A DNA stretch of 64,000 nt from Candidatus Korarchaeum sp. (GTDB lineage Archaea; Korarchaeota; Korarchaeia; Korarchaeales; Korarchaeaceae), in assembly GCA_038888615.1 (NCBI GenBank), contig JAWAID010000001.1, positions 558,001 through 622,000 on the forward strand, in the 5' to 3' direction. The notes beneath the pieces were generated by a model. The model did no database searches, was not told the origin of the DNA, and saw nothing but the letters and a program-made list of their open reading frames with translations. This document shows, piece after piece, positions 38,742-56,283 of the stretch. The stretch's first letter is position 1. Every line of letters begins with the position of its first letter. A program made the position numbers and the translations under genes.

Positions 38742-39557
38742 TCAAGTTAGATCTTCCTCTAATCCCAATATTAATATCGGGTATATTTCCCTAGGAATAC
38801 CTCCTTCCAATGCGCTCTCATCCACTAAGCTCCAATCGCCCCCACATGCATTGCACTTCATAGAGTAGAACCCTCTCCTCAGGTAGGATGACTCAGCCTC
38901 GGAGGATCCGCAGAAGGGACATCTATTCTCAGGGTAATCCCATTCCATACAGCAGATCTCACACTTAAGGTGCACCCCTTTCTCATCAGTAAATGATGTC
39001 TTTGTGTAACTCCCGCAGATAGGGCAAAACCCCTTATCCCACCCCTTAGAATCGATCTTCCCATCTAAGGCCTCTTTTATTGCTAGAAAGAGGGACTGCA
39101 TGATCCAAACTCCTATAGCGCTCAGGAGGTCCTCGCTAACACCTATCGTGAGAGAAACCCCTCTTGCGTAATTCAAATCTCCCTTAAAGGAGAGCCTAGC
39201 CAAGCTCTCCAGGTCAAAGAGGCCTTCCTTTATTGAATTACTGATAACACTCAATTCCTCCCTAAGGTCCCTCCTGCGGGAAACCAGGGCGGATAATATG
39301 CCAGAGGCGAGCTCCTCCCACACTTGGGGATCGATCTTAGGGATATCGTAGGCATCGAACAGGGATGATCCACTGGATCTCGCTTGATTGAAGTATTTAA
39401 CCAGATCCTCTGCTATAATATACTTAGCTAAGATATCACACATGCGGACTTGAGCGGTGAAGATCTCTAAGAAAAGTAACATTGAATCAGAGAGCTCTGG
39501 TTCCTCCTCTATTATCTTATGGACGGCATGCCTGACTCTCTGTGGATCCACGGGCAT
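38742..39557 (-). CDS. FdhE-like accessory protein
   Basis: A 271-residue protein like FdhE, which in bacteria matures Tat-exported formate dehydrogenases. The C-terminal third holds four CxxC pairs (FCPICGSY, CEICCMEW, RCPFCGSS, CNACGGDW) as tandem rubredoxin-like knuckles, while the N-terminal two thirds are helical. A TATA element near 39577-39586 gives it its own promoter after the hyp genes. No formate dehydrogenase is encoded in the window, so it may serve another metalloenzyme such as the hydrogenase. This is inference. Confidence 0.78.
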   Translation of the reverse strand: MPVDPQRVRHAVHKIIEEEPELSDSMLLFLEIFTAQVRMCDILAKYIIAEDLVKYFNQARSSGSSLFDAYDIPKIDPQVWEELASGILSALVSRRRDLREELSVISNSIKEGLFDLESLARLSFKGDLNYARGVSLTIGVSEDLLSAIGVWIMQSLFLAIKEALDGKIDSKGWDKGFCPICGSYTKTSFTDEKGVHLKCEICCMEWDYPENRCPFCGSSEAESSYLRRGFYSMKCNACGGDWSLVDESALEGGIPREIYPILILGLEEDLT

Positions 39558-39772: not shown

Positions 39773-40825
39773 TCAGCAGATCCTAGGCACTATAACTCCG
39801 GAAGACGGTTCTAAAATCCTCAAACCTCCGACGAGGGTCCTCATGATGACGATACCATCGTAACCCTCCCCCTTCCTGACCTCCCCGATTATGGAGGCAT
39901 CGGAGTACCCCAGGCCCCTGATGAACTCCAGTATCTCCTCAGCAAGACTACCCTCAACTCCTAAAACTGCCCTCCCCTCACAAGCTAAGAAGAGAGGATC
40001 TACTCCCAGTAGCTCAGTGAAGGCCTTAACATCCTCCCTCACGGGAATCTTGTCCTCACTCACGACCAATAGTAAGCCTGACTTCTGGGCCCACTCATTC
40101 AGCGTCTGCGCTAATCCACCCCTAGTCGGGTCCTGCGCTGCATGTATCGCAGTCCCGTATCTCTCGACGAGTGGTACCATCAATCTAGTCAGTGGTTCTA
40201 CATCACTTCTCAGCTCGCTCTTGACGGAGAGGCCTTCTTGAGATGATAATATCGCAGCCCCATGCTCTCCTATGGTCCCCGTCACTATTATCCTGTCTCC
40301 AGGCTTTAGTCTTGAGTCGACTATAGGCCTCCTTGCTATCCCTAGACCTGCCGTGGTTATCACGTACCTATCGAGCTGACCCTTCGGCATCACTTTGAAA
40401 TCACCTCCAACAAGCTTAACTCCCTCCTTCCTCAAGGTCTCAATGAAGCTCTCAGTTATCTCCTCCACCTCGGAAAGGGGGGATCCCTCCTCTACTATTA
40501 TGGAGTCCAAGATAACCTTCGGGATACCCCCCATCATCAGAATATCGTTTATCGTACCACAAGCCGCAAGCTTCCCTAGGTCCCCCCCTGGGAAGAACGG
40601 AGGGTTCACCGTGTAAGAGTCTATGGAGATAACCAGATAGGTTCCGTCCGGTAGGGGGATGGCCGCGCCATCGTCGAGCTCCCCTAGACCCACGCCCCCC
40701 TCGACAGACAGCTCCTCATCGGATAGCTTAGATAACACTAACTTCCTCACGAGGAGGGTAGTCTCCCTTCCACCGGATCCGTGGGCCAATTTCACAGCAG
40801 TTAACTCGGGCTCATTCAACTCCAT
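39773..40825 (-). CDS. hypE: Hydrogenase maturation protein HypE
   Basis: HypE dehydrates the carbamoyl group received from HypF to a cyanide ligand for the Fe(CN)2CO centre. The 350 residues contain HGSGGRET near the start, the GELDDGAAI metal site, GGDFKVM and the essential C-terminal PRIC, whose Cys carries the thiocyanate. It overlaps hypC by 14 nt and is the last gene of the long hydrogenase operon. Confidence 0.97.
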   Translation of the reverse strand: MELNEPELTAVKLAHGSGGRETTLLVRKLVLSKLSDEELSVEGGVGLGELDDGAAIPLPDGTYLVISIDSYTVNPPFFPGGDLGKLAACGTINDILMMGGIPKVILDSIIVEEGSPLSEVEEITESFIETLRKEGVKLVGGDFKVMPKGQLDRYVITTAGLGIARRPIVDSRLKPGDRIIVTGTIGEHGAAILSSQEGLSVKSELRSDVEPLTRLMVPLVERYGTAIHAAQDPTRGGLAQTLNEWAQKSGLLLVVSEDKIPVREDVKAFTELLGVDPLFLACEGRAVLGVEGSLAEEILEFIRGLGYSDASIIGEVRKGEGYDGIVIMRTLVGGLRILEPSSGVIVPRIC

Positions 40826-41035: not shown

Positions 41036-41818
41036 TCACCCCACCCCCACTAGCTCATCTAGTAGCTTCTCCATTTGATATCTGAAATCCCCCGGTAACT
41101 CGGAGAACCTCCCTTTTTTAATCCGTTCCTCAATGGACAGATCTATGGGTAGACTCGCTAAGATCCTGAGACCGTATCTGCTCAGAAAATCATCGTCGAT
41201 GCTCCCAAAAGGTCTTAAAGTTTCACCACAGCACTTAATGTACGCCATGTTCTCAACGAGTCCGTAGATCCTCATCCCCTCCTCCCTGAGCAGTCCGATT
41301 AGCCTAGCGACTACGGAGCGTGACAGGGAGGAGGGTGTCGTTATCACGATAGCACCGGCATTATCCATATTCCTCAAGGCTCTTAGGCAAAATAACGTCT
41401 CATCACCGGTCCCGGGAGGCATGTCAATCACTAAGTGGTCCAGATCCCCCCACTCCGTCATGGCAAGGAGAAACGAGAGTGCGGACCTCTTACTCTCTCC
41501 TTTCAGAGGTACTGGATTCCCCCCCACCATCAACCCCAGAGACATCAGCTTGAGTCCATTTACCACAGGAGGGATCAAGCCCTCCTTACCAGCCACTAGC
41601 TCGTCATTAAACCCGAATATGTTAGGTATAGAGGGTCCGTGAATGTCTAGGTCTAGCAAACCAGTTCTGTATCCTCTATTCGCGGAGGTAAGCGCGAGGG
41701 ATGCAGCCAATATACTCTTACCAACTCCCCCCTTTCCCGAGGCTACTAAAGTGATTCTCTCCACCTTCCTAAGCTTCTTCTTCGCCCTATCAAAGATAGG
41801 ATCCTCCAATGAGCTCAC
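41036..41818 (-). CDS. Mrp/MinD-family ATPase acting as HypB
   Basis: A 260-residue P-loop ATPase of the Mrp/NBP35 group. It has the deviant Walker A ASGKGGVGKSILAASLAL near residue 26, switch I DLDIHGPSIPNIFG, DMPPGTGDET and a short cysteine pair in AYIKCCGET where other Mrp proteins have CPHC. It sits between hypA and hypC, overlapping hypA by 4 nt. In Thermococcales this same family replaces the GTPase HypB and works with HypA to insert nickel, so that role is likely here. The alternative, a general Fe-S carrier, cannot be excluded. Confidence 0.88.
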   Translation of the reverse strand: MSSLEDPIFDRAKKKLRKVERITLVASGKGGVGKSILAASLALTSANRGYRTGLLDLDIHGPSIPNIFGFNDELVAGKEGLIPPVVNGLKLMSLGLMVGGNPVPLKGESKRSALSFLLAMTEWGDLDHLVIDMPPGTGDETLFCLRALRNMDNAGAIVITTPSSLSRSVVARLIGLLREEGMRIYGLVENMAYIKCCGETLRPFGSIDDDFLSRYGLRILASLPIDLSIEERIKKGRFSELPGDFRYQMEKLLDELVGVG

Positions 41819-42252
41819 CCCTCTAAAACCACCTTGTAGATCCTCAATCCCCTTCCAGATTCCACCTCAAAGTCCCTACTACCGCAACTAGGACATCTCA
41901 TCAGGGCTTGAGCTAGATCGGGGATGAAGTGGATCGGGCTCTCCCTATCGCCGCTCGTCCCCTCCCTTATCCCCAGATCCTCCGGGAGCGTATCATGAGC
42001 CTGTTCAAAATCCCACTTATATCCACAGGAGTTACACCTGAAAGATGCCTTCTCCTCCCTGAACATGAACCTAGAACCCTCTAGAGGAGTCCCCTTAGAT
42101 AGTTCCTCTAATGCGAACCTCAGTATATCTAGCTCGAGCTCCATCATTTCACCATACACTATCTCGACCTCCGAGACCCTCCCAGCACTCTCATGCTTAA
42201 CTATGGGTATTATAGCCTCCAGTATGGCTTCCGCTAGCGACCACTCATGCAT
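41815..42252 (-). CDS. hypA: Hydrogenase nickel chaperone HypA
   Basis: HypA delivers nickel to the hydrogenase large subunit. The N-terminal MHEWSLAEAI gives the nickel ligand His2. The zinc domain uses CNSC (73-76) and CPSC (120-123), with an insertion of about 40 residues between the pairs, as in the longer Thermococcus-type HypA that pairs with an Mrp-type HypB. This agrees with the gene next to it. Confidence 0.95.
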   Translation of the reverse strand: MHEWSLAEAILEAIIPIVKHESAGRVSEVEIVYGEMMELELDILRFALEELSKGTPLEGSRFMFREEKASFRCNSCGYKWDFEQAHDTLPEDLGIREGTSGDRESPIHFIPDLAQALMRCPSCGSRDFEVESGRGLRIYKVVLEG

Positions 42253-42278: not shown

Positions 42279-42773
42279 CTACAGCTTAAAATCGTAAGCA
42301 GGTGTATTTCTCCGAATCCGGAGGAGCTGCATTATCTCGCTCAATATAACTTCAGCGAGCTTCTTCGCAGCGACCCTGATCCTCTCACTGGCAGGGAACC
42401 CTAGACGTGGTTCATTAATCGTTATACAGTAGATCCTTACCTCAGGAATCCTCTCACCTAACTCCTCCAACAGACTTAGGATCTCAGGAATCCCGTAATA
42501 GTGTGGTGATGGAGCTGCTGCTTGACCCAGTGAGCTAGGGTCTATTCGAACGAGCTCGCCGGCCCTATCGCTCACTACAGAGTCTATCAGTATTATGAGA
42601 TCGTAGTCCCCCAGGAAGTGATCTAATAAACGGATCCCTGATTCATGGGATTTTACTATTTCCACGGATTCTAGGTCCTTAGGTATTCTTCTCGAGAGCT
42701 CATCCGCTACTAAGAGACCGGCAGCATCGTCTCCGAAGAGCTCATTCCCTAATGCTAGAACGAGAATTCTCAT
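42279..42773 (-). CDS. Hydrogenase maturation protease
   Basis: An endopeptidase of the HycI/HyaD/FrcD group, about 164 residues. It removes the C-terminal tail of MvhA after nickel insertion. The motif LALGNELFGDDAAGLLVADEL has the conserved Gly and the first nickel-binding Asp; LIILIDSV holds the second Asp and SPHYYGIPEIL the His. It lies directly downstream of mvhA. ATG 42773 (MRILVLALGN) is taken over the slightly longer start. Confidence 0.92.
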   Translation of the reverse strand: MRILVLALGNELFGDDAAGLLVADELSRRIPKDLESVEIVKSHESGIRLLDHFLGDYDLIILIDSVVSDRAGELVRIDPSSLGQAAAPSPHYYGIPEILSLLEELGERIPEVRIYCITINEPRLGFPASERIRVAAKKLAEVILSEIMQLLRIRRNTPAYDFKL

Positions 42774-42827
42774 CGCAATCACGTTAAAATTAGATAAGAA
42801 AATAAGAAGTTATTGGAAAATTTAATG

Positions 42828-44288
42828 TTAGCCTCTCCTAATCTCCTTTATCAGGTTATCGTTGTTATCGTATACCCTGACTATCAGCGGCATTGAGCCC
42901 GGCAGTGAGTGAGTCGCGCAGGCGTGACACGGGTCGTATGCCCTGAAAGCCATTTCTACCATATTCAGAATTCCATCATCTATTTTTCCACCTTTTATGA
43001 GAGATCTGGCAGCTTTGTCAACGGATAAAACCATTCTTGCCGAGTTGTTCTGCGTTGCGACTATGAGGTTTGCTTTCTTTATTATGCCTCGTTCATCCGT
43101 CTCGTAATGGTGGATCAGTGTCCCTCTAGGTGCCTCAACTACACCTATTCCAACATCAGGCTTTTCCTTCGGAAGGTTCCTCACTTCCTTACTCCTTATC
43201 TCAGGGTTTTCAATGAGCTCCATCATCCTCTCGGCAGCATACACCATCTCGATGACCCTAGCCCAGTGGAATGCTAGCGTGCCATGGACGGGCTTTCCAC
43301 CCATGGCCTGGTAGAACTCCTTGTAGAGCTCGTTAGCCATGGGCGTTGCCATCCCATCAGAGGCGTTGAGCCTAGCTAGAGGAGCTACACTATAGATACC
43401 GCTCTCCTTACCATCAACGAAACCCTTCCATCCCACACGCTTAAGGTAGGTGAACTTCACGTAGGTCCAAGGTTCCACCTGCTCAGCTATATGATCTAAA
43501 TATTCCCTAGCGTCGAACTTAGCGAACTCCTTGCCCTCCGGATCGACTACTCTTATCTTCCCATCGTAGAAATTGACGTGATTGTTACTATCAACCAGAC
43601 CCATGTAGTAGGTCCTGTGGGTATAAGCATCTGACTTCATCAGCTCCACGTACTGATCGTTTGAGAGGACTATGTCCTTCAGAGCCTTATAGGCGAACTT
43701 AGCGAACTCTACTCCCTCCTTCGACGTCTCGAAGCAGATCCTCCAGTCTTCGTCTGATAAGGGCTTAGCGACCCCTCCTGGGAGGCCTAGCACAGGGTGT
43801 GTTATCTTTCCTCCTATGAGCTGCTCCAGGTATCTCAGCTTCTTTCTAGTAACTATCACGCTCTTGACCAGGTCCGCCCCCAGCTTCTTGATGATACCGA
43901 GGAGATTTCTCTCCTCCTTGGGTGCTGTTGGTCCTACTATGAAGTCAGGTCCTCCGAGAACATAGAAGTGAAGAGCATGATCTTCTAGCATGAAAACGTT
44001 GTATGCGAATTCTCTTATCAATTTAGCAGCTAGCGGAGGCTCTACCTTGAAAAGATCGTCTAATGCCTTTACTGAGGCCATATGGTGAGCCCAGGGACAA
44101 ACACCACATATCCTAGAAGTTATCTGAGGTGCATCCTCCACCGTCCTACCGACCAAGAATTTCTCGAATCCCCTTAACTCCGGGACCTGAAGGAGCGCTT
44201 TTTGAACGTTTCCGTTCTCATCCAGCTTTATCACGATCTTCCCATGACCCTCCAATCTAGTTATAGGGTCTATTACTACTTCCCTCAT
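42828..44288 (-). CDS. mvhA: [NiFe] hydrogenase large subunit, MvhA type (group 3c-like)
   Basis: The catalytic subunit with the Ni-Fe centre. The L1 motif is RICGVCPWAHH (Cys61, Cys64) and the L2 motif DPCHACATH (Cys454, Cys457). Cleavage after His460 would remove a 26-residue tail starting SLPG. There is no selenocysteine. The 486 residues and the neighbours MvhG, MvhD and HdrA place it with the F420-non-reducing cytoplasmic hydrogenases. It would oxidise or evolve H2 with low-potential partners in the attached flavoproteins. Confidence 0.95.
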   Translation of the reverse strand: MREVVIDPITRLEGHGKIVIKLDENGNVQKALLQVPELRGFEKFLVGRTVEDAPQITSRICGVCPWAHHMASVKALDDLFKVEPPLAAKLIREFAYNVFMLEDHALHFYVLGGPDFIVGPTAPKEERNLLGIIKKLGADLVKSVIVTRKKLRYLEQLIGGKITHPVLGLPGGVAKPLSDEDWRICFETSKEGVEFAKFAYKALKDIVLSNDQYVELMKSDAYTHRTYYMGLVDSNNHVNFYDGKIRVVDPEGKEFAKFDAREYLDHIAEQVEPWTYVKFTYLKRVGWKGFVDGKESGIYSVAPLARLNASDGMATPMANELYKEFYQAMGGKPVHGTLAFHWARVIEMVYAAERMMELIENPEIRSKEVRNLPKEKPDVGIGVVEAPRGTLIHHYETDERGIIKKANLIVATQNNSARMVLSVDKAARSLIKGGKIDDGILNMVEMAFRAYDPCHACATHSLPGSMPLIVRVYDNNDNLIKEIRRG

Positions 44289-44297
44289 AATCCCACC

Positions 44298-45266
44298 TCA
44301 ATCCCCGCTTCTCCTGTAGATGGTCCCCTTCCCGAAGCAGTACTTCGCGAACCACCCCAGCGGATCTACACCAACCTCATCCAAGAGCTTCCTAAACGCG
44401 ACCTCATCATCGACGTTAATTATCGAGGAGAAGAACGATAGAGCCTTTGCTCCCTGGTAGCTTACACCATCTACAGGACCAAAGCATCCGGTGCACGGCA
44501 TGTTGCCCCTCACGCAGAGCGCCTTACAACCTCCTCTAGTGACGGGCCCCATACAGAGTACTCCCTGAATCAGATAACACTTACTCGGATCCAATATGAC
44601 TTGATGTGGTCTCTTTATACTGTCCAGAACTATCTTCTCGGGTTTAGTCTCGTTAAGAGGACACTCATAACAGAGAGCCCTGTCGCTACCGAAAACGTGG
44701 CCCTTAGGCGGTAACTTGCCAGAGAGTATGGAGGAGATAGCTTCCCAAGTGATCTCAGGGGTAGGAGGGCAGCCCGGGATATAGTAATCGACTTCAACCA
44801 CTTCATCCAGAGGTTTCAGGTATTCTAAGAAGGCCGGCAACTCAAACTCCATCCCGTCAACCGTAACCCTTGCCTCGGGCCTCCTACTACTGGGATTGGC
44901 GGCAGTAGGTGCCTCCTCATATACGTACTTGAGGATAGATTCTTTCGTATAAGCATTTGCTAGAGCAGGGATACCTCCCATATGAGCGCAACTACCATAT
45001 GCAACGACCAACTTGGCTTTCCTCCTGAGGAGCTCCACCATCTCCTCGTGCTCACTTACCCTTATCCCACCGTTTATTATAGCCACATCTACCGAACCAT
45101 CGGGGATCTTCTCCACATCCTCCTTCTTGAAGTCCATGGCCACAGGCCAAAGTACTATATCCGCAGCTTCAACTAAGTCGAATATCTTTTCAGCGAGATC
45201 TACCTGGGCCTCCTCGCAACCTCCACAGCTAGCGCACCAATAAAAGGCTATCTTGGCCTTAGGCAT
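44298..45266 (-). CDS. mvhG: [NiFe] hydrogenase small subunit, MvhG type
   Basis: The Fe-S subunit that relays electrons from MvhA. The proximal cluster ligands are in FYWCASCGGCEEA, VAYGSCAHMGG and IPGCPPTPE. Further cysteines in ALCYECPLNE, SKCYLIQGVLCMG, GGCKALCV and MPCTGCFGP supply the medial and distal clusters. There is no Tat signal, so the enzyme is cytoplasmic. ATG 45266 is five bases after the AGGTGA element; ATG 45269 and GTG 45275 are alternatives. Confidence 0.93.
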   Translation of the reverse strand: MPKAKIAFYWCASCGGCEEAQVDLAEKIFDLVEAADIVLWPVAMDFKKEDVEKIPDGSVDVAIINGGIRVSEHEEMVELLRRKAKLVVAYGSCAHMGGIPALANAYTKESILKYVYEEAPTAANPSSRRPEARVTVDGMEFELPAFLEYLKPLDEVVEVDYYIPGCPPTPEITWEAISSILSGKLPPKGHVFGSDRALCYECPLNETKPEKIVLDSIKRPHQVILDPSKCYLIQGVLCMGPVTRGGCKALCVRGNMPCTGCFGPVDGVSYQGAKALSFFSSIINVDDEVAFRKLLDEVGVDPLGWFAKYCFGKGTIYRRSGD

Positions 45267-45271
45267 CATAA

Positions 45272-45703
45272 TCACCTCCCGGAATCCAACCTGAGGGGTC
45301 CTAACTTCCTAACTTGCTCCACCATCTCTGTCACGACATCCACCCACTTCTTAGCCTCAGCAGCTGAGATCCACTCTCTTCTAAATCTCTCCTTCTCTAT
45401 ACCCATCTGCTCAAGCATCTTCTCGAGGAGGACGGTTCTCCTCATGGTCTTCATGTTCCCATTGACGTAGTGACAGTCGCCAGGATGACATCCCGCGACC
45501 AGTACGCCGTCAGCCCCGTTCCTGAAGGCCTCTATAACGAACTGAGGATCGCTTCTACCGGAGCACATCACCCTTATCACCCTAACGTTGGGGGGGTACT
45601 TGAACCTGCTCGTTCCTGCTAAATTGATAGCCTGGTAAGTACACCAATGGCATGCGATAACGACTATCCTCGGCTCGAAGCTCCCCTCACTCAACGAAAT
45701 CAC
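45272..45703 (-). CDS. mvhD: MvhD/FlpD-type [2Fe-2S] electron-transfer subunit
   Basis: A 143-residue FlpD-family protein that connects the hydrogenase to HdrA. Conserved cysteines appear in VVIACHWCTYQAIN, IRVMCSGRSDP and LVAGCHPGDCHYVNGN. In bacterial QmoB this domain is fused to the HdrA part; here it is a separate gene whose GTG overlaps the HdrA stop by 4 nt. Order HdrA-MvhD-MvhG-MvhA is as in methanogens. Confidence 0.92.
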   Translation of the reverse strand: MISLSEGSFEPRIVVIACHWCTYQAINLAGTSRFKYPPNVRVIRVMCSGRSDPQFVIEAFRNGADGVLVAGCHPGDCHYVNGNMKTMRRTVLLEKMLEQMGIEKERFRREWISAAEAKKWVDVVTEMVEQVRKLGPLRLDSGR

Positions 45704-47685
45704 CTCCCGAATATCGCTAAAATCTGCGGGATTATCTGTTTATCCTTGTAACCGTACTGCTGTATAGCTGCTGATGGGCATGCAGCGACGCACGTCCCGC
45801 AACCCTCGCATAACATGGGGTCTATCTTGGAGTACTTAGTCCCATCTTCCCTCTTAAGGATCGATATTGCATTGAACGGGCAAAGGGAGACACATATCCC
45901 GCAACCGGAGCATTTACTTTCATCTACCTCGGCTATCAGGGGCTCGACCTCTATATAGTCCTTGACCAAAAGTATCGAGGCCTTTGCCGCAGCCGCGCTA
46001 CCGGCTATTATGCTTTCTGGTACATTCTTCGGACCTGTAGCAGTCCCGGCGAGGAATATCCCTCCAGTGAGAGACTCTACTGGGTTCAGCTTCAAATGCA
46101 ACTCCTTCAGGAATCCATCTCCCCCGCATCCTACTTTGAAGAGGCTCCTCACGGAATCAACGTCTTTGATAGGGGTCATGCCTGTGACTAGGACCACGGC
46201 GTCTGCAGGTATTGATATCCTCTCCTGCAGCGTGGCCTCGAAGACCTCCACAGAAAGCCTGTCCTTCTCTATAGATACCTTCGGAGACTCCTTATCGAAT
46301 CTAACGAACTTAATGGAGCTATCTATAGCATCCCAGTAAAGCTTCTCGTCCTTCCCATAGACCCTTATGTCCTTATGTACATAGAAGATGTTCGCATCCG
46401 GATACTTGCTCTTGATATGGAGCATCTCAGATAGAGCGGCCATACAGCAAGTCCTAGAACAGTACTGATTAGCGTGTGGAGTTGTACTGAGTGAGCCGAC
46501 GCATGATATGAAAACGATGCTTTTCGGCCTGGTACCATTCACCAGCAGCTCTCCTCTGGTTGGTCCATCATCGCTTAAGTATCTCTTTAGTTGATTCAGC
46601 GTTATCACCCTTGGAGAGAGGGAGTAACCGTACTCCCCGACAGCCGGTTCATAATCTTCATGTCCTATTGACATCACGATAGCCCCTATCGTGAGGGAAA
46701 TCTCCTCTTCCCTCTCATCTAGGTTTATGGCATTGACTGGGCAGACTTCCACGCACTTACCACAGAAGGTACACGCACTCGGGTCTATGACGTACCTCTC
46801 AGGATAAGCCCCTGGGAAGGGAAGATATATCGCTTTTCTCTCGATTAATCCATATTCATACTCATTAGGGACAGAAACGGGACATACTTCAACGCATTTA
46901 CCGCATAAATTACACTTTTCACTCACGTATCTTGGCTTTCTCTTGATCGAAACCTTGAAGTTACCTATCGAGCCGTCCACTCCGATGACCTCTGAATTCG
47001 TATGAACTACGATCCTCGGGTTCTCCTTGACCCTGTTTATAAGACTCCTCACCGATTCTCTCCCGGATATCCTCCGCCCCTCCCAGCTTAACAGACCCAT
47101 CAGGGCCACGTGACCCCCGAGCGTAGGTCTCCTCTCTACCAGATGGACCTCGAATCCCCTATTGGCTAAGTCAAGCGCGGACGTTAGCCCGGCTACACCC
47201 CCTCCCACGATCAGTGCCCTACGGACTACCTCACCCCTTATCTTCTCTAGGGGCTCTAAATTCCTAGCCCTAGCCACCGACATCCTTATCATATCCTTCG
47301 CCTTCTCAGTGGCAGCCTTCGGGTTATCGTAGTGTACCCAAGAACTCCCCTCTCGTATCGCTATGAGGTCAATTAGGAATGGGTTCAAACCGGCTTCCGA
47401 TACGGCGGCCCTGAAAGTGGGTTCGTGCATCTCAGGCCCGCATGCGGCTATGACCACCCTATTTAGTTTATACTGTTCAATGTCCTCCTTTATTAAGTTC
47501 TGACCCGGTGCGGAGCACATGAAAACGTACTCTTTGGCAATTACGACGTCAGGCAATGTCTTAGCATATTCAACGAGCTCCTTGACATCTATTACCCCGG
47601 CTATGTTGAGGCCACAGTGACAAACGTAGACACCTACCCTTACCTCTTCAACTTGAGATTCAGGGGCCTTAACTCCCTTACTCAT
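45700..47685 (-). CDS. hdrA: HdrA-type flavoprotein with four ferredoxin-like cluster motifs
   Basis: A full-length HdrA (661 aa), the FAD subunit where electron bifurcation occurs in methanogen HdrABC. Order: N-terminal domain with CHCGLNIAG and MCSAPGQ, FAD-binding IVGGGVAGLTSALDLANRG near 160, an inserted ferredoxin pair (CNLCGKCVEVCP, CTFCGKCVEVCP), a second nucleotide-binding half with GTATGPKNVPESI, and a C-terminal ferredoxin (CSGCGICVSLCP, CEGCGTCVAACP). GGGGGG precedes the ATG. It resembles both methanogen HdrA and the first part of QmoB. Confidence 0.94.
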   Translation of the reverse strand: MSKGVKAPESQVEEVRVGVYVCHCGLNIAGVIDVKELVEYAKTLPDVVIAKEYVFMCSAPGQNLIKEDIEQYKLNRVVIAACGPEMHEPTFRAAVSEAGLNPFLIDLIAIREGSSWVHYDNPKAATEKAKDMIRMSVARARNLEPLEKIRGEVVRRALIVGGGVAGLTSALDLANRGFEVHLVERRPTLGGHVALMGLLSWEGRRISGRESVRSLINRVKENPRIVVHTNSEVIGVDGSIGNFKVSIKRKPRYVSEKCNLCGKCVEVCPVSVPNEYEYGLIERKAIYLPFPGAYPERYVIDPSACTFCGKCVEVCPVNAINLDEREEEISLTIGAIVMSIGHEDYEPAVGEYGYSLSPRVITLNQLKRYLSDDGPTRGELLVNGTRPKSIVFISCVGSLSTTPHANQYCSRTCCMAALSEMLHIKSKYPDANIFYVHKDIRVYGKDEKLYWDAIDSSIKFVRFDKESPKVSIEKDRLSVEVFEATLQERISIPADAVVLVTGMTPIKDVDSVRSLFKVGCGGDGFLKELHLKLNPVESLTGGIFLAGTATGPKNVPESIIAGSAAAAKASILLVKDYIEVEPLIAEVDESKCSGCGICVSLCPFNAISILKREDGTKYSKIDPMLCEGCGTCVAACPSAAIQQYGYKDKQIIPQILAIFGR

Positions 47686-47699
47686 CTCGATCCCCCCAA

Positions 47700-48977
47700 T
47701 CAGCTAACCGCCAAAAGGGATGCTTTCATTGCTGCGGCGCTGGCTTGGACTACGGAGTCAGGTATGTCCTTGGGGCCACTCAGCATCCCGATAACGAATA
47801 TCCCCGGCAAGGGGGAGCTGACGGGTTCCATGATGGGATCCTTAAGCTGGGCAAACGAATCCTCAGAAACTGGTATGAAGGAATCAGGTAGCCTGGGCCT
47901 CACTCCCACTGCTAGAACCACCATATCAAACTCCTCCTTGATGAACTCACTCCTCTGAGTATCCTCATAATGTACTATTAGGTTTCTAGTGTTGGGGTCC
48001 TCTACTATCCTCGCTGGTTTACTTCTAATGAACCTAACACCGAACTCATCTCTCGCCCGATCGTAAAACTCTTGATAACCCTTTCCAAAGGCCCTGAGAT
48101 CCATGTAGAAGATGGTTACATCGACTTCATGCATGTGCTCCTTCGTCAATATAGCCTCCTTCACTGAAGCCATGCAACAGATAGCAGAACAGCTAGGGTT
48201 CACCCTAGCATCCCTTGAGCATACGCACTGAATGAACGCTATCTTCTTGGGATGCTTCTTATCAGATCTCCTCACGATCTCACCACTGGTTGGCCCGGTA
48301 GCAGAAACTATCCTCTCGTACTCCAAGTTCGTGTAAACGTTTGCATAAACACCGTAGCCGTACTGTTCCCTCAGAAAATCGGCATCCATTATGAGATCGT
48401 ATCCGGTTGCGAATATCACTGCCGCAACGTCGAGCTCAATGTCCTCCGGTTTCTGGTTGTAGTCTATGGCCTTAGCAGGGCAGAACTTCTCACAATTCTT
48501 ACAGATCCCCTTTTGGAAGAAAAGACAGTGATCTGCGTCTATGGTAGCCTTCAAAGGAACTGATTGTGGGAACGGAATGTAAATTGCTTTTCTTTCACTC
48601 ATATATAAGTTATACTCATCTGGAACCTTGGATGGGCAGTACTTAAAGCAGACCATACAGCCAGTGCACTTGTCGATGTCCACGTACCTGGGCTTCTTCC
48701 TAACCTTCAACTTGAAATTTCCAGCCTCTCCCTTTATGTCTAGGAGCTTATGATAAGTTAAGAGCTCTATGTTCTTGTTCCTAGCGACCTCCACCATTCT
48801 AGGCGTCAATATACACATACTACAATCTAGAGTAGGGAAAGTCTTATCGAGCTGTGCCATTCTTCCGCCGATCGAGGGAGTCTCCTCTATGAGGTAGACC
48901 TTGATACCTTGGTTCGCGAGATCTAAGGCAGCTTGAATACCAGCTATTCCACCACCGATAACGGCAACAGGTTTCAT
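47700..48977 (-). CDS. Short HdrA paralogue (QmoA-like flavoprotein)
   Basis: A flavoprotein of about 425 residues with the FAD motif AVIGGGIAGIQAALDLANQG, the HdrA signature LDCSMCILTPRMVEVARN, an inserted ferredoxin-like region (CTGCMVCFKYCP and CLFFQKGICKNCEKFCP) and the ending GMLSGPKDIPDSV. It lacks the extra N-terminal and C-terminal ferredoxin domains of its neighbour, exactly the size and layout of QmoA. ATG 48977 overlaps the stop of the QmoC-like gene by 4 nt. Pairing with the long HdrA would give a QmoAB-like heterodimer. Confidence 0.86.
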   Translation of the reverse strand: MKPVAVIGGGIAGIQAALDLANQGIKVYLIEETPSIGGRMAQLDKTFPTLDCSMCILTPRMVEVARNKNIELLTYHKLLDIKGEAGNFKLKVRKKPRYVDIDKCTGCMVCFKYCPSKVPDEYNLYMSERKAIYIPFPQSVPLKATIDADHCLFFQKGICKNCEKFCPAKAIDYNQKPEDIELDVAAVIFATGYDLIMDADFLREQYGYGVYANVYTNLEYERIVSATGPTSGEIVRRSDKKHPKKIAFIQCVCSRDARVNPSCSAICCMASVKEAILTKEHMHEVDVTIFYMDLRAFGKGYQEFYDRARDEFGVRFIRSKPARIVEDPNTRNLIVHYEDTQRSEFIKEEFDMVVLAVGVRPRLPDSFIPVSEDSFAQLKDPIMEPVSSPLPGIFVIGMLSGPKDIPDSVVQASAAAMKASLLAVS

Positions 48978-50116
48978 AACTCTCCCTCCCAAACTTTAGC
49001 GAACCAGAGGGCAAGTGGTCTGTAGATCAGGTGAGCCAGCTTGGAGAAGGGTGCTGAGATTATCAGATAGAAAACAGTCAGTAAATGAACTCCGTATGAA
49101 GCGTAAGCTAGTAGTGGAATGTTCACATAAATAGCGGTTGTTATCAGGAAACCAGACAGTCCGATCACGAGGATTAGTGAGAGGAGCCACCAGTCAGGTA
49201 AGTAAGTTCTTTCTGCGTATACATCGTCTTTCTTAATCCTGTGGAGCAAGTAATAGACGCTACCATACATGAGCAATATTCCCCCAATGATCCCCAGGAC
49301 TCTAGCGGTGTTCGTAACGAGGGGTGGTTCAGGAACTTCCGGATATAGTGTTAACCAAATAAAGTGAACTCCCGTGGCTGCAAAGGTCAAGACAAATCCC
49401 CAGAAGATTGATAGATGCGCCAAGTACCTACCGCTAAAACCCTTCTGGCACCTGAGTCTCAGCTGGAATAAGCCTTCCTTTAGGATGACGTCTACTAACT
49501 CCTTAATCCAAGTGGACAATTTGACTCTCTTCTCACACTCTAAAGTACCCCTCATGTAGCTGTACATGGTTATGATGTTGGCTAGGCTCACTAAAACCGT
49601 ATATGCAAGGAGCCATAATCCTATCTCATGAATTATTTCTGAGCTCATGAACGTATTTATGTTCACCCTAGCGAGGTCAAGCTCACTCAGGCCATGGGAC
49701 CAGGTGAAGATGCCTAAGATCCCCACGAGTGTCATTATCATCAGAGCTATTGCAGCGTAGAGCTTTTCGTAAAATATTTTACCTAGTTTGAGGAAGCTGT
49801 AGTTGATCACCTGGTACTTCCTAGCGGAATCCATTATGTAGCCGGGAGTAGCCTCTCTGGGACATGTCGCATTACAATCCCCACAGAAATAACAAGTCCA
49901 TGGCGTAGGATCTCCTAAGATACTGCTCCTCATTCCAAGCTGGATCTTCTTTATTAGCCTCCTCACTCTCACCGTCTGAATCTCAGAGTTGGGGCATATC
50001 GCTGTACATGTCCCACACTGGTAGCACTTACGTATACCCTCCCCTCCAAGTCTCAGGAATTCCCTGGAAATGTCCTCTGCCACCACAATCGGTTTTTCAG
50101 TCATGGACAGAGTCAT
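48974..50116 (-). CDS. QmoC-like membrane subunit (HdrC fused to cytochrome b domain)
   Basis: A protein of about 380 residues. The N-terminal HdrC-type part carries two [4Fe-4S] motifs (CYQCGTCTAICPNS and CYFCGDCNATCPREATPG). The rest is a membrane domain with about six helices similar to QmoC/HdrE/NarI, with candidate heme histidines in SEIIHEIGLW, LAHLSIFWGF, TGVHFIW, YLLHRIKK and YGVHLLTVFY. The ending FSKLAHLIYRPLALW is typical of that domain. It is the first gene of the hydrogenase operon. I start at ATG 50116 because a T-rich promoter (50143-50160) lies inside a longer frame that reaches 50182; ATG 50104 is also possible. Confidence 0.87.
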   Translation of the reverse strand: MTLSMTEKPIVVAEDISREFLRLGGEGIRKCYQCGTCTAICPNSEIQTVRVRRLIKKIQLGMRSSILGDPTPWTCYFCGDCNATCPREATPGYIMDSARKYQVINYSFLKLGKIFYEKLYAAIALMIMTLVGILGIFTWSHGLSELDLARVNINTFMSSEIIHEIGLWLLAYTVLVSLANIITMYSYMRGTLECEKRVKLSTWIKELVDVILKEGLFQLRLRCQKGFSGRYLAHLSIFWGFVLTFAATGVHFIWLTLYPEVPEPPLVTNTARVLGIIGGILLMYGSVYYLLHRIKKDDVYAERTYLPDWWLLSLILVIGLSGFLITTAIYVNIPLLAYASYGVHLLTVFYLIISAPFSKLAHLIYRPLALWFAKVWEGEL

Positions 50117-50142
50117 CAGCGGGATCCCCGACGGGAAAGGGA

Positions 50143-50160
50143 GTATTAAATAATAAAAAT
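50143..50160 (-). promoter_or_regulatory. Promoter of the hydrogenase/Qmo-like operon
   Basis: On the minus strand ATTTTTATTATTTAATAC lies 27-44 nt before ATG 50116. It is the nearest TATA-like sequence and would place the start of transcription a few bases upstream of the codon. No GTATTAC/GTAATAC pair with the spacing seen before nikM is present here, so NikR control of this promoter is not evident. Confidence 0.42.
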
Positions 50161-50182
50161 ATTTCCCATCGATACCCCTCAT

Positions 50183-50584: not shown

Positions 50585-52909
50585 GTGCTCTCAAGACAAG
50601 GTAGCGCAGCCCTGCATATCAGGATATCCGGTGTAGTTCAAGGGGTAGGGTTCAGACCATTTATTCACAGAGTGGCCACTAGATATAACCTATCAGGGTA
50701 CGTCAGGAACTTAGGAGGAAGCGAGGTGGAGATAAGGGTTGAAGGGAACTACGGGGCGATCTCATCTTTCATAAAATCACTATTGGATGAGAGGCCACCT
50801 CCAGCTAGAATAGAGGAGATAATCATAAGATCAGATCAACCAAATGGCATCTCTGGGTTCTTCATACTCGGCAGTGGTGATAAAGCTGAGATCTACTCAA
50901 TGATACCGCCTGACTTCAGCATATGCGATCAATGTCTCAGGGAGGTTTACGACCCTTCCGACAGGCATTATAGGTATGCGTTCAACAGCTGCGCCTGGTG
51001 CGGTCCTAGGTTCTCGATGATGAGGAAGGTCCCCTACGATAGGGAGAACACTTCCATGAATGAATTCCCACTCTGCAAGGATTGTGAGCTTGAGTACAGG
51101 GATCCGAGCGATGAGAGGAGGTTTCATGCCCAGGGGATCTCATGCCCCAAGTGCGGTCCCTCCCTCTGGCTTGAGGACAGTAAGGGGAACAGAGTGAGCT
51201 CCGATGACCCAATAAGGGAGACAGCTGGGCTGATAGAGGAGGGTAAGATAGTCGCTATAAAGGGCATCGGGGGTTATCACATCGCTTGCCTCGCTACCGA
51301 TGATGAAGTCGTCAGGAAGCTTAGGGAGAGGAAGAGGAGGCCATCCAAACCATTTGCCCTTATGGCCCTCGACCTAGGGACCGTTGAGAGATATGCTATA
51401 CTAGATGACGCTTCAAGGAGCCTGCTTTTGAGTCCAGAGAGACCTATAGTCCTTCTTCCAAGAAAAGAAGGTTCTGAGATCTCCGATTTAGTGGCACCGG
51501 GCCTGCACCTGGTCGGTACGATGCTGCCCTACACGGCTCTTCACCACATGCTACTGAGCGAAACGGGGGAGAAGGTGCTCATAATGACGAGTGGAAACGA
51601 TCACAATAAACCGATGTGCACAGATATAGAAAGCGCCAGGAGGAACTTGTCCGGGATAGTCGATTACTTTCTGCATCATGATAGGGAGATCGTGAATAGG
51701 GTGGATGATAGCGTCGTTAGGTTCACTGGAAGAAGGGTCACGATGATCAGAAGGTCCAGAGGCTACGCTCCCATGTGGATAAAGCTTCCGGCTCGCTTGA
51801 AGAGGCCAGCTATAGCATTCGGTGCCGAGCTCCAGAGTGCGGGAGCAGTGGCTTTCGAGGATAGGGTGGTCCTGACACAGTTCATAGGGGATACGGATGA
51901 GTTGGAGAACTTAGAGTTCTTAGATAGGATGCTCAGGTTCTTCGCTAGTGTTTACAGAGTAGATCCATCCGAAGCAGTTCTGGTGGCAGATAGACATGAG
52001 GAGTACTCATCTAGGAGGTTGGCTGAGCTCTGGGCCTCTAGGTACGGTTCACCCCTGGTGACCGTTCAGCACCATCATGCCCATGTGCTCTCCGCGATGG
52101 TCGAGGGAAGGGTGAATCCGGAGGAGGAGGTGATAGGAATAGCTGTCGACGGCCTCGGTTACGGGGATGACGGGACGTTCTGGGGAGGGGAGGTCCTCCT
52201 ATCGAGCTTCTCCCATTTCGAGAGGGTCGGTCACCTGAGACCCCAGCCGATGCCTGGCGGAGATAGGGCGTCCAGGTACCCCGTGAGGATGCTAATAGGT
52301 ATCCTGAGCACTTTCATGGACGATGAGGAGGTGCTCGAAGCTCTGAGGAAGAGGGATCTGATTAAGGGACTCCCTAAGGGAGAGGAGGAGGCCTTGGTAG
52401 CATTAAGGCAAGCCAGAAGTAAAACTCCCCTTATATCGAGCGTTGGGAGGGTGATGGATGCCATGAGCTCCTTACTAGGCGTCTGCTTCGAGAGGACTTA
52501 TGAGGGGGAGCCCGCGATGAAGCTGGAGGCAGTGGCCTCCAAGGGCAAACTGATAGACCTCGATCCCCCTAAGATAGTCGGGAACCTCATAGATACGAGT
52601 GAGTTCCTGGAGAGGGTGCTGAGCCTGGACGCCAGAAGGGAGGATGTGGCCTTCACCGCGATATACCTCATCGGTTACTCACTGGGGAGACTGGCATCGA
52701 TGAACCTCGGAAGGAGTGATCTGAACCTCGTCTTCGTCTCAGGAGGGGCTGCTGTCAATTCAATCCTGGTATCTGGCATCGAAGATGCCTTGAGGGAAGG
52801 GGGGGCTCAGGTGAAGCTGAACTCAGCGGTACCAGCCGGGGACGGTGGGATAGCGCTGGGGCAGGTGGCATCCCTCCTGGGGAGGGAGAAGGATTATGCA
52901 CTTAGCTGA
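50585..52909 (+). CDS. hypF: Carbamoyltransferase HypF
   Basis: HypF makes the carbamoyl group that becomes the cyanide ligands of the Ni-Fe site. The 774 residues show the acylphosphatase domain (ISGVVQGVGFRPFIHR at the N-terminus), two zinc fingers (CDQCLREVYD ... CAWCGPRF and CKDCELEYRD ... CPKCGPS), a YrdC domain (KGIGGYHIACLATDD, MTSGNDHNKP) and a Kae1-like domain (VQHHHAHVLSAMVE and VFVSGGAAVNSIL). All domains are complete. GTG start. The end overlaps hypD by 14 nt. Confidence 0.97.
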   Translation: MLSRQGSAALHIRISGVVQGVGFRPFIHRVATRYNLSGYVRNLGGSEVEIRVEGNYGAISSFIKSLLDERPPPARIEEIIIRSDQPNGISGFFILGSGDKAEIYSMIPPDFSICDQCLREVYDPSDRHYRYAFNSCAWCGPRFSMMRKVPYDRENTSMNEFPLCKDCELEYRDPSDERRFHAQGISCPKCGPSLWLEDSKGNRVSSDDPIRETAGLIEEGKIVAIKGIGGYHIACLATDDEVVRKLRERKRRPSKPFALMALDLGTVERYAILDDASRSLLLSPERPIVLLPRKEGSEISDLVAPGLHLVGTMLPYTALHHMLLSETGEKVLIMTSGNDHNKPMCTDIESARRNLSGIVDYFLHHDREIVNRVDDSVVRFTGRRVTMIRRSRGYAPMWIKLPARLKRPAIAFGAELQSAGAVAFEDRVVLTQFIGDTDELENLEFLDRMLRFFASVYRVDPSEAVLVADRHEEYSSRRLAELWASRYGSPLVTVQHHHAHVLSAMVEGRVNPEEEVIGIAVDGLGYGDDGTFWGGEVLLSSFSHFERVGHLRPQPMPGGDRASRYPVRMLIGILSTFMDDEEVLEALRKRDLIKGLPKGEEEALVALRQARSKTPLISSVGRVMDAMSSLLGVCFERTYEGEPAMKLEAVASKGKLIDLDPPKIVGNLIDTSEFLERVLSLDARREDVAFTAIYLIGYSLGRLASMNLGRSDLNLVFVSGGAAVNSILVSGIEDALREGGAQVKLNSAVPAGDGGIALGQVASLLGREKDYALS

Positions 52910-54029
52910 ATTAAGAGATAAAGAAATATCACTAAAAATAGCAAGAAAGATAAAAGAAATAAGTAAAGATCTTGGAAATATAAAAATAATGAACTTTTGT
53001 GGTACGCATGAATGGACGATAACTCACTACGGCCTCAGGTACCTGATGCCCGAGAACCTGGAGCTGGTAGCGGGTCCGGGATGCCCCGTGTGCATAACCC
53101 CAGCCCAGTACGTGGACGCAGCGGTCAGGCTGGCGATGGAAGGCGTGAGGGTGCTGACCTTCGGGGACAGTTACAGGCTCATGGGCTCCAGGAGGAGCGG
53201 TCTCCCCAAGAGCCTAGAGGAGGCTAAGGAGAAGGGGGCTAGCGTGGAGATAGTTTACGGGATGTTAGATGCTATTAGGATGGTAAGAGACGGTAAGGAA
53301 TCTGTTTTCCTCTCTGTAGGCTTTGAGACGACGGCTCCGGCTACACTGAACCCCATCCGCTCGGGTGAGATTCCCAGTAACCTCAGCTTGATCGTGGCCC
53401 ATCGCCTCACACCGCCAGTGATGAGGTACGTGCTGGAGAGGTTTCCGGGCTCCCCCATAAGGGGGGTGATAGCTCCGGGGCACGTCTCAACGATAATAGG
53501 CTCCTCGGCTTGGGAGTTCGTGGCCGAGGAGTACGGAATACCGGTAGCTGTATCAGGCTTCGAACCCGTTGACGTGCTCCTCTCGGTCCTGGAGATAGTT
53601 AGGCAGATCGCGAGAGGTGAAGCCAAGCTCTTCAACGAGTACTCCAGGGTCGTCAGCTACGGAGGGAACGAGAGGGCCCTGAGGGTCATAGCCTCAACTA
53701 CGGACGTGGTCGACGCGGCCTGGAGGGGGATAGGGGTTGTGCCTAAGAGCGGCCTGGTGCTGAAGGAGGAGCTCTCCGAGTTCGATGCGCTGAAGAGGTA
53801 CGGCTTAAGCGAGCCCTCAGAGTGGCGTGACGACTCACCTCCAGGTTGCAGGTGCGCTGAGATCACGCTGGGAATAGCCAAACCGACGGATTGTCCTCTT
53901 TTCATGAGGACCTGCACTCCTCAGAGGCCTTACGGCCCGTGCATGGTTTCGATCGAGGGAACCTGCTTGATATGGGCCAAGTACGGGGGCGGTGAGTTCC
54001 TCAGGGGGCTCCTAGATCTATCGACTTGA
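52896..54029 (+). CDS. hypD: Hydrogenase maturation protein HypD
   Basis: HypD holds the iron with HypC while CN and CO ligands are attached. Conserved motifs are NFCGTHEWTI (near 35), GPGCPVCITP, SVGFETTAP, APGHVSTIIG and the C-terminal [4Fe-4S] ligands CRCAEITLGIAKPTDCPLF with CTPQRPYGPCMVS. All are intact. The first ~35 codons are markedly A+T rich (AAA, ATA, AGA codons) while the rest matches the GC-rich hypF, a sharp change near 53000. Confidence 0.97.
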   Translation: MHLAELRDKEISLKIARKIKEISKDLGNIKIMNFCGTHEWTITHYGLRYLMPENLELVAGPGCPVCITPAQYVDAAVRLAMEGVRVLTFGDSYRLMGSRRSGLPKSLEEAKEKGASVEIVYGMLDAIRMVRDGKESVFLSVGFETTAPATLNPIRSGEIPSNLSLIVAHRLTPPVMRYVLERFPGSPIRGVIAPGHVSTIIGSSAWEFVAEEYGIPVAVSGFEPVDVLLSVLEIVRQIARGEAKLFNEYSRVVSYGGNERALRVIASTTDVVDAAWRGIGVVPKSGLVLKEELSEFDALKRYGLSEPSEWRDDSPPGCRCAEITLGIAKPTDCPLFMRTCTPQRPYGPCMVSIEGTCLIWAKYGGGEFLRGLLDLST

Positions 54030-54678: not shown

Positions 54679-55293
54679 ATGCACATCCCCGACGGCTTCC
54701 TGGACCCGGCCGTGGCGCTGACCCTCTACGCGGTGTCCTTAGCTGCGGTGATCTACTCGGGTAGGAGGTACTTCAGGGGGGGTGGCGACATACACTACCT
54801 CTCCGTGACGGCTGCAGCTATATTCGCCGCTCAGATGTTGAACTGGCCGATACCAGGCGGTACCTCAGCTCACTTCGTTGGTGGGGCATTCGCATCGATA
54901 CTGATAGGTCCCTTCGGAGGTTGCTTGGCGATGTTCATGAACCTGCTCGTCCAATGTCTCCTGATGGGGGACGGTGGCATAACAGCCCTGGGAGCCAACG
55001 CGTTCAACATGGCGGTAGTGGGTGTGTTCTCGGGCTACGCCATATATAAGGCCGCTCTGAGATACCTGGGTGAGGGCAGAAAGTTCTTATCAGCGTTTCT
55101 GGCGGGCTGGCTGAGCATAACCCTGGCCGCGGTCACCTGCGGCGTGGAACTGGGTCTCTCCCCGAGCTTCGGGTATCCCCTGGCGGTGACCGTACCCGTG
55201 ATGGGGTCGTGGCACCTGGCCTTGGGGCTGGTAGAGGGCCTGGCCACGGCGATGATAGTAACCTACCTATCCGGCAGGGGGTTGAGATTGTGA
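54679..55293 (+). CDS. nikM: Nickel ECF transporter substrate-binding membrane protein NikM (CbiM family)
   Basis: A 204-residue S-component. The N-terminus MHIPDGFL provides the metal-binding Met-His. Family motifs NWPIPGGTSAHFVGGAFAS and MGDGGITALGANAFNMAVV are intact across about six helices. CbiM (cobalt) and NikM (nickel) are close relatives; nickel is chosen because of the hydrogenase maturation genes upstream and NikR downstream. GGGTGA precedes the ATG by 4 nt. Confidence 0.9.
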   Translation: MHIPDGFLDPAVALTLYAVSLAAVIYSGRRYFRGGGDIHYLSVTAAAIFAAQMLNWPIPGGTSAHFVGGAFASILIGPFGGCLAMFMNLLVQCLLMGDGGITALGANAFNMAVVGVFSGYAIYKAALRYLGEGRKFLSAFLAGWLSITLAAVTCGVELGLSPSFGYPLAVTVPVMGSWHLALGLVEGLATAMIVTYLSGRGLRL

Positions 55294-55553
55294 GGAGTTA
55301 CCTCGCCATAATCCTGTTGGTGCTGATAAGCCCTCTCTTCGGGGTCATAGGTGCTAACGTAGTGGGCTACAGGGAACCGTTGGACGTAGCGGCCGAGCTC
55401 ATCGGCATGGAGGAATCCGAACCGATATGGAGCGGGATATTCCCTGACTACACGTTACCGGGGCTGCCCGATGAGTTAGCTTACGTAATAGCTGGGCTCG
55501 TGGGAGTGGGGGTCCTCCTGCTGCCCTCCCTGGTAAGGAAGGCGAGGCCTTGA
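55290..55553 (+). CDS. nikN: Nickel transporter small subunit NikN (PDGLE-like)
   Basis: An 87-residue protein with an N-terminal helix (about 5-25), an external segment with PDYTLPGLPDELAYV matching the PDGLE-type region, and a C-terminal helix. It is the small accessory subunit needed for metal uptake. The GTG at 55290 overlaps the nikM stop (GTGA). Confidence 0.85.
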   Translation: MRSYLAIILLVLISPLFGVIGANVVGYREPLDVAAELIGMEESEPIWSGIFPDYTLPGLPDELAYVIAGLVGVGVLLLPSLVRKARP

Positions 55554-56275
55554 GGAGGAGCATCGAGAGGGTATTCGAAGAAGCCTCGAGGTCCTTCTAC
55601 GATTGGCTTTCCTCGATGGAACTCTCAGTCGGAAGGCTTCACGCGAATCCACTCGCATCCTTCCTCTCCTGCGTGGTTGCAGTATCGCTGGCTTCCTTCT
55701 CATCGAGGGTATCGCAAGTCCTCTTCATAATGGTCCTTTCTTCAATTATCCTCGTTTTTTGCAATGTTAAGAGATTCAGGAGGTACCTGAAGCTTTCTCT
55801 GGCCTGGTTCTCCTTCACCTTGGTCATAATGCTGCCTAGGATGGTTCAGGAGATCGGAACCATCCTCCTGCCACTGAGGGTGGCCGCAGCTCTCCTGACG
55901 CTGAGCGCCTTCATCGAGCTGGTGGGGGCCAGGAGGCTGATGAACGGGATCGATGGGCTGCTAGCGCCCCTCCTCGGGGGTAGCCTAGCCACCGCTCTCG
56001 AGGTGATGGTGAACCACATCGGTAGGTACGTGAGGTCGCTCGGCAGACTCGTGTTGGCCAAGGCCTCCAGGCTGATTGAGGGAGGTTTGACCGGAGATTA
56101 CTCGATAATCTCGCTCGCAGCCTCGGATCTCTTCTTCAGAGGATCTAGAGATGCTTTTTACACATCTTTGGTGCTGAGGTCGAGGATGTTCGAAGCTGGC
56201 TTGAGCAACAGCCCGAGGGATACCTCCATCATCCTCGCTATAGCGTTTACTTATACCCTCACCCTGTTGGCTTAG
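55550..56275 (+). CDS. nikQ: Nickel ECF transporter transmembrane protein NikQ (CbiQ family)
   Basis: A 241-residue T-component with about five helices. It couples ATP hydrolysis in NikO to NikM. The usual Ala-Arg-Gly coupling motifs are degenerate; the second may be VLRSRMFEAGLS near 210. The family call therefore rests largely on position, size and topology. The TTG start overlaps the nikN stop by 4 nt. Confidence 0.84.
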   Translation: MRRSIERVFEEASRSFYDWLSSMELSVGRLHANPLASFLSCVVAVSLASFSSRVSQVLFIMVLSSIILVFCNVKRFRRYLKLSLAWFSFTLVIMLPRMVQEIGTILLPLRVAAALLTLSAFIELVGARRLMNGIDGLLAPLLGGSLATALEVMVNHIGRYVRSLGRLVLAKASRLIEGGLTGDYSIISLAASDLFFRGSRDAFYTSLVLRSRMFEAGLSNSPRDTSIILAIAFTYTLTLLA

Positions 56276-56283
56276 GTGTCCCG

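Follow-up and report, generated by a model that had tools for sequence, protein, structure and literature searches.

A conserved archaeal operon predicted to connect an Mvh-type hydrogenase, through two HdrA proteins, to a QmoC-type membrane subunit

In a 64,000-nucleotide stretch of DNA from the hot-spring archaeon Candidatus Korarchaeum sp. (assembly GCA_038888615.1, contig JAWAID010000001.1, positions 558,001–622,000; hereafter the window), which belongs to a genome of 1.67 Mb on two contigs, one operon encodes a QmoC-like membrane subunit, a short and a long HdrA protein, and the MvhD, MvhG and MvhA subunits of a [NiFe] hydrogenase. On the basis of sequence comparisons, the operon is read, with barely better than even confidence, as a membrane-attached H2:quinone oxidoreductase that would bifurcate electrons to ferredoxin. 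The assembly of the six gene products into one membrane complex is highly probable, and a connection of H2 to quinone through this complex is probable. Bifurcation in the H2-oxidizing direction is an evenly balanced proposition.

Organization and conservation of the six-gene operon

The six open reading frames (ORFs) lie on the minus strand at window positions 42828–50182. Their identities were assigned using Pfam, NCBIfam and PDB homologues of HdrA, HdrC, MvhD, MvhG and MvhA, and they are listed here in 5′ to 3′ order.

48974–50182, minus strand: QmoC-like membrane subunit, with an HdrC-like domain (two [4Fe-4S] motifs) and a NarI/HdrE-type heme b membrane domain (NCBIfam, PDB HdrC, AlphaFold2 (AF2) model, Foldseek)
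47700–48992, minus strand: short HdrA, 430 residues, with a flavin adenine dinucleotide (FAD) domain and an inserted two-cluster ferredoxin domain; candidate bifurcating subunit (5odc_A match, AF2 model, residues)
45700–47685, minus strand: long HdrA, 661 residues, with an N-terminal domain, an FAD-type domain, and inserted and C-terminal ferredoxin domains; probable MvhD docking subunit
45272–45703, minus strand: MvhD, the [2Fe-2S] adaptor between hydrogenase and HdrA (PF02662, 183 bits; 5odc_D and 8rvu_F, cysteines conserved)
44298–45275, minus strand: MvhG, the hydrogenase small subunit (5odc_E, 207.9 bits; cluster cysteines conserved)
42828–44288, minus strand: MvhA, the [NiFe] group 3c large subunit, with a probably cleaved tail (5odc_F, 394 bits; both motifs)

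The genes are arranged almost without gaps. The QmoC-like and short HdrA genes share 19 bases as called and 4 bases if the ATG at 48977 initiates the short HdrA, and the remaining spacings down to MvhA are +14, −4, −4 and +9 bases. A start of the QmoC-like gene at 50116 is preferred over 50182 because the resulting 380-residue protein has the size of its homologue in genome L043. An earlier note, made from the letters of this DNA alone, had placed the six genes in this order in a single operon with the first gene starting at 50116, and both assignments hold.

A search for this gene order, which the earlier note had proposed, retrieved it from 19 archaeal genomes, in which the operon is whole or its QmoC gene is cut by a contig end. 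Given this recurrence, the order is far beyond chance. The carriers belong to Korarchaeum, a second genus of the Korarchaeum family, Archaeoglobi and several thermoproteotal families. Within Korarchaeum, they are G000, G010, G011 and G013; in G007 the operon is cut by a contig end, and this genome is not among the 19. The same six genes stand in the same order in G022, from the other genus of the family, and the operon is also found in Ca. Geocrenenecus huangii and in metagenome-assembled genomes (MAGs) of Thermoprotei and Archaeoglobaceae. A strict search with the short HdrA picked 6 of 295 and 8 of 398 genomes from two phylum samples. Thirteen of these 14 genomes carry the operon, two of them being the same as named records (each genome is counted once in the 19), and the fourteenth (L193) contains an ordinary HdrABC-Mvh cluster. 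In every operon, a QmoC-type gene stands at the head, either next to the short HdrA gene or overlapping it.

Cofactor residues and history of the subunits

The translated MvhA contains the L1 motif RICGVCPWAHH and the L2 motif AYDPCHACATH, which match the patterns ICGxCxxxH and AYDPCxxCATH of group 3c [NiFe] hydrogenases (PMC6085437). Its best PDB match, over the whole length, is the large subunit of the solved HdrABC–MvhADG complex (5odc_F). MvhG and MvhD accompany MvhA and conserve their cluster-ligand cysteines in the PDB alignments. In the MvhA tree, the archaeal operons group together (86/100); few HdrABC-linked references are included, so nothing further can be read from it.

The two HdrA proteins both match HdrA of the HdrABC–MvhADG complex and differ in domain content and in flavin-site residues. 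The short HdrA (467.9 bits to 5odc_A) corresponds to residues 145–563 of that protein, which form the FAD and inserted ferredoxin domains, and lacks the N-terminal domain and the C-terminal ferredoxin domain. Its AF2 model has a pLDDT of 90 and a TM-score of 0.94 to 5odc_A. K409 and E356 of Methanothermococcus HdrA stabilize the flavin, and their presence has been put forward as a criterion that tells bifurcating proteins from non-bifurcating ones (PMC12054007). Counted along the 5odc_A alignment, their equivalents in the short HdrA are K278 and E226, and these positions are retained together with the CxxC and CxxxCC motifs in all 18 archaeal short HdrA proteins of the operon type. In the corresponding 18 long HdrA proteins, CxxC is gone throughout and the K409 lysine is kept in four; the long HdrA of the window has serine at the K409 position and lysine at the E356 position. 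The C-terminal ferredoxin domain is found in the long HdrA only. Because the short HdrA keeps the markers and the long HdrA alone has this domain, the former looks like the bifurcating subunit and the latter like the docking subunit.

A tree built from 98 FAD domains places the archaeal short HdrA proteins in one clade and the long HdrA proteins in another, each with a support of 100. The inner branching orders of the two clades are broadly alike, and the two proteins have therefore evolved as a pair. The short HdrA had been noted as QmoA-sized, which is correct as to size, but its orthology to QmoA fails: a grouping of the two was rejected (p-AU 8.5e-6, approximately unbiased (AU) test). A grouping of the long HdrA with QmoB was likewise rejected (p-AU 1.0e-4), with only two usable QmoB rows. 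Both tests used a quick tree with no mixture model, and the choice of groups followed inspection of that tree.

The membrane subunit has NCBIfam qmoC as its best family match (213.7 bits, under the model cut-off of 300). Its N-terminal part matches PDB HdrC with two [4Fe-4S] motifs, and its AF2 model (pLDDT of 85) shows likeness to HdrC, EtfD and NarI in Foldseek, with weak E values (0.007–0.15) and probabilities of 0.99–1.00. The cysteines of both [4Fe-4S] motifs and the heme-type histidines H185, H256, H366 and H384 are kept. H256, H366 and H384 are nearly invariant among the 50 proteins compared, and H185 is kept in Korarchaeum; two hemes are plausible from this pattern. The prediction of an Mvh hydrogenase wired via two HdrA proteins to a heme-containing membrane subunit of the QmoC type is thus borne out at the membrane end, where the heme ligands persist on alignment and the protein has a QmoC-type place in the tree.

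The QmoC tree (C20 mixture model) differs from that of the HdrA pair. A single clade of the 20 archaeal operon-linked QmoC proteins is rejected (p-AU 2.6e-4), and the membrane part has therefore been exchanged between lineages. The QmoC proteins of Korarchaeum and L192 group with those of hydrogenase-less clusters, with a support (94/97) just below the firm-branch threshold. In L190 (1999–4256) and L191 (2207–4497), two different QmoC-like genes, each of a type that occurs singly elsewhere, stand in tandem before the short HdrA gene, and these loci resemble an intermediate stage of membrane-subunit exchange. The second QmoC of L190 and L191 and the QmoC proteins of L181–L185 have diverged, with one cluster cysteine replaced (CNLHGDC or CNVHGDC), and L181–L185 have also lost the histidine matching H366. 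These alignments and trees are most simply explained by a stable HdrA–Mvh core whose membrane subunit underwent duplication, loss and replacement.

Proposed electron path and alternative explanations

In the proposed complex, MvhA would split H2 in the cytoplasm, and electrons would pass through MvhG and the [2Fe-2S] cluster of MvhD to the long HdrA, entering at its C-terminal ferredoxin domain; by homology to HdrABC–MvhADG, this subunit would dock and wire MvhD. The bifurcating FAD would reside in the short HdrA. From there, high-potential electrons would reach quinone by way of the QmoC-like subunit, with its HdrC-like clusters and heme b, and low-potential electrons would leave through the inserted ferredoxin domain of the short HdrA to ferredoxin. 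The net reaction would be 2 H2 + quinone + 2 Fd(ox) → quinol + 2 Fd(red) + 2 H+. We tentatively extend this scheme, at slightly less than even confidence, to an asymmetric membrane-bound pair in which bifurcation is the task of the short HdrA, the long HdrA serves only to wire MvhD to it, and the quinone subunit is exchangeable and has been replaced by different archaea. If true, this would be, to our knowledge, the first HdrA-type bifurcating hydrogenase with quinone, and not a disulfide, as the high-potential acceptor.

The scheme is favored by the high expression of its Archaeoglobi version (PMC10945360), by the conservation of gene order with overlapping genes, and by the absence of APS reductase (PF12139) from all 16 Korarchaeum genomes, the family being found in the Archaeoglobus-type control G035. 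A suitable electron pool is indicated by a Rieske protein that has a Tat-type start and, after it, a SoxC-like cytochrome b (window 127–2048). The cytochrome b is present in 15 of the 16 Korarchaeum genomes searched, in a genus usually described as fermentative, and the pair therefore points to heme b and to a pool of the quinol type. A UbiA gene beside a UbiD gene is compatible with quinone synthesis.

Several observations weigh against this assignment. Canonical QmoA also keeps K409 and E356, with CPPxC replacing CxxC, and these markers do not distinguish the complex from Qmo, whose bifurcation has likewise only been proposed. (A loss of CxxC as a general QmoA trait was rejected, since the alignment shows a changed motif there.) MqnA/MqnD-type menaquinone genes (PF02621) were not found in Korarchaeum beyond weak matches, and one such match in this genome (C2:213283) was rejected as support for menaquinone because it is weak and its ORF adjoins ABC transporter-like ORFs. 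A heme-copper oxidase was found neither in this genome nor in the operon carriers checked. A lone molybdopterin protein near 640.8 kb was rejected as a terminal reductase, as no partner subunits were recognized. Quinone reduction may also not be common to all members of the family, because the QmoC of some Archaeoglobi operons has lost one histidine and one cluster cysteine.

Heme-copper oxidases do occur in five Korarchaeum genomes without the operon (G001, G002, G004, G006 and G009). The lack of overlap between oxidase and operon (5 and 5 of 16 genomes) has a probability of about 0.1 by chance in a hand calculation, which is not significant, and no claim is based on it.

The same subunits could form a plain H2:quinone oxidoreductase in which both FADs are simple relays and all electrons reach quinone through QmoC. 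The Korarchaeum long HdrA has indeed lost K409, E356 and the CxxC ligands, and electron transfer from H2 to menaquinone is, by general knowledge, strongly downhill and needs no coupling. However, a simple relay would leave superfluous both the inserted ferredoxin domain of the short HdrA and its full set of markers in 18 of 18 proteins, and we regard the non-bifurcating explanation as rather unlikely. A reverse operation, with reduced ferredoxin and quinol confurcated to H2 as the electron outlet of a fermenter, is less likely again. It would suit a genome with no oxidase and no obvious terminal reductase, the peptide-using heterotrophy of K. cryptofilum (PMC10469681), and the presumed operation of canonical Qmo, in which electrons from quinol cross the membrane into the cytoplasm. 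However, a quinol source is not clear, and the H2-evolving group 4g and [FeFe] hydrogenases reported from Korarchaeia (PMC10667645) make an Mvh-type enzyme unneeded for H2 release.

The composition of the complex could also differ from that proposed. A soluble assembly of MvhADG and two HdrA proteins that uses another acceptor, with the QmoC-like gene working apart, would account for the separate history of QmoC in the AU test and for the tandem QmoC genes of L190 and L191. This arrangement is quite improbable in view of the constant place of the QmoC-type gene at the operon head, against the short HdrA gene, and of the lack of an HdrB gene in the window, which contains none of the seven matches to the CCG domain in the genome. 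The subunit types resemble QmoA, a split QmoB and QmoC, but a canonical Qmo for APS reduction with a merely adjacent hydrogenase operon has a negligible probability: the QmoA and QmoB orthologies are rejected, APS reductase subunits are absent from the 16 Korarchaeum genomes, and the hydrogenase genes are in the same operon every time. The description in the earlier note of a Qmo complex joined to Mvh is therefore not supported in this form. With the QmoA and QmoB groupings rejected, APS reductase missing and the history of QmoC distinct from that of the HdrA pair, the operon is more aptly seen as an HdrA/Mvh core to which a QmoC-type membrane subunit was recruited. The proposal of an H2:quinone oxidoreductase, perhaps a bifurcating one, is supported as to the H2–quinone wiring; bifurcation is made more likely, and is not shown, by K409/E356 and the cysteine motifs of the short HdrA.

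Neighboring genes, related systems and significance

The hydrogenase operon is flanked by maturation genes and by probable metal uptake genes.

42279–42782, minus strand: hydrogenase maturation protease (TIGR00072, 82 bits)
41815–42252, minus strand: HypA, nickel chaperone (NF003008 above cut-off)
41036–41818, minus strand: Mrp/NUBPL-type iron-sulfur carrier ATPase, possibly replacing HypB (PF10609; MrpORP match)
39773–40825, minus strand: HypE (TIGR02124 above cut-off)
50585–52909, plus strand: HypF, divergent from the operon (TIGR00143 above cut-off)
52896–54029, plus strand: HypD (TIGR00075 above cut-off)
54679–57138, plus strand: CbiM-type genes for metal uptake and, after them, an ABC ATPase; probable role in Ni/Co supply (PF01891, PF00005; the middle gene has no Pfam match)

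Together with these neighbors, positions 42828–50182 make up a full hydrogenase operon and the genes for its maturation. Beside the hyp genes, a protein at 38742–39557 has a cysteine pattern judged by eye to be FdhE-like and no Pfam or NCBIfam match; its homologues lie near the operon in L039, L040 and L043.

Related gene sets also occur outside the 19 genomes. A widespread sister cluster without hydrogenase (L041:3805–9738, L044:3147–8871, L054:4319–10080 and similar loci) contains DsrE-like, MvhD-like, short HdrA, long HdrA and QmoC genes in Korarchaeum, Aminicenantes and other hosts, and its DsrE partner suggests that it handles a sulfur substrate. Rearranged relatives with the QmoC gene linked to MvhA are found in Bryobacteraceae, Bacteroidales and Actinomycetota MAGs (L094, L113 and L120). 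Unusual fusions are seen in the Desulfobacterota MAGs L103, L125 and L128, in which a QmoC of 766–779 residues is followed by an HdrA of more than 1100 residues and then MvhD.

The Korarchaeum operon is most similar in content to the Mvh-Qmo-Hdr cluster of Ca. Methanoglobus hypatiae and nevadensis (Archaeoglobi), published in 2024, in which MvhAGD, two HdrA proteins and a QmoC-HdrC fusion are encoded together and expressed at 995–2431 reads per kilobase per million mapped reads (RPKM), and for which H2 bifurcation to menaquinone and ferredoxin was proposed (PMC10945360). In a literature search, the name was found in that paper only. The Archaeoglobi-related genomes L180–L185 share the gene order of Korarchaeum, whereas the Korarchaeum QmoC belongs to another lineage and has all heme-type histidines; L181–L185 are not matched by name to the published genomes. 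The novelty claimed for the arrangement was thus overstated, and the Korarchaeum operon is a further lineage of one already known from genes and expression.

The other known systems share parts of the operon. The methanogen HdrABC–MvhADG complex (PDB 5odc) has MvhA, MvhG, MvhD, an HdrA-type FAD domain and HdrC-like clusters, but it contains a single HdrA, whereas the Korarchaeum operon encodes a short and a long HdrA, lacks HdrB, and has a heme membrane domain fused to the HdrC-like domain. In sulfate reducers, QmoABC also combines a short HdrA-like protein, a long HdrA-like protein with an MvhD domain, and QmoC (PMC10504309). In Korarchaeum, in contrast, MvhD is encoded on its own, a hydrogenase takes the place of AprAB as partner, and neither HdrA protein is an orthologue of the canonical QmoA or QmoB sampled, a comparison without type II Qmo. 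Type II QmoAB is described as closer to HdrA, present also without Dsr or Apr, and of unknown function (PMC10504309), and judged by this description, the Korarchaeum operon probably belongs near it. The Mvh:Hdl complex of Archaeoglobus also pairs an Mvh hydrogenase with Hdr-like subunits outside methanogens but is described as soluble and without a QmoC membrane subunit (PMC3949148). For Korarchaeota, the papers compared (PMC10469681 and PMC10667645; McKay 2019 and Elkins 2008 were outside the comparison) report HdrABC/MvhD, and MvhA in few lineages, and not the six-gene operon.

If the proposed reaction takes place, quinone and ferredoxin would be reduced from H2 at one enzyme, which would tie H2 uptake to both respiration and carbon fixation, and this link would hold in archaea without methanogenesis. 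Korarchaeum, usually called a peptide fermenter, would gain a possible H2-driven quinone step. Because the short HdrA keeps the markers and the long HdrA lacks them, the division of labor between the two can be tested directly by mutation. At the membrane end, the replacement of QmoC points to a module that can be exchanged.

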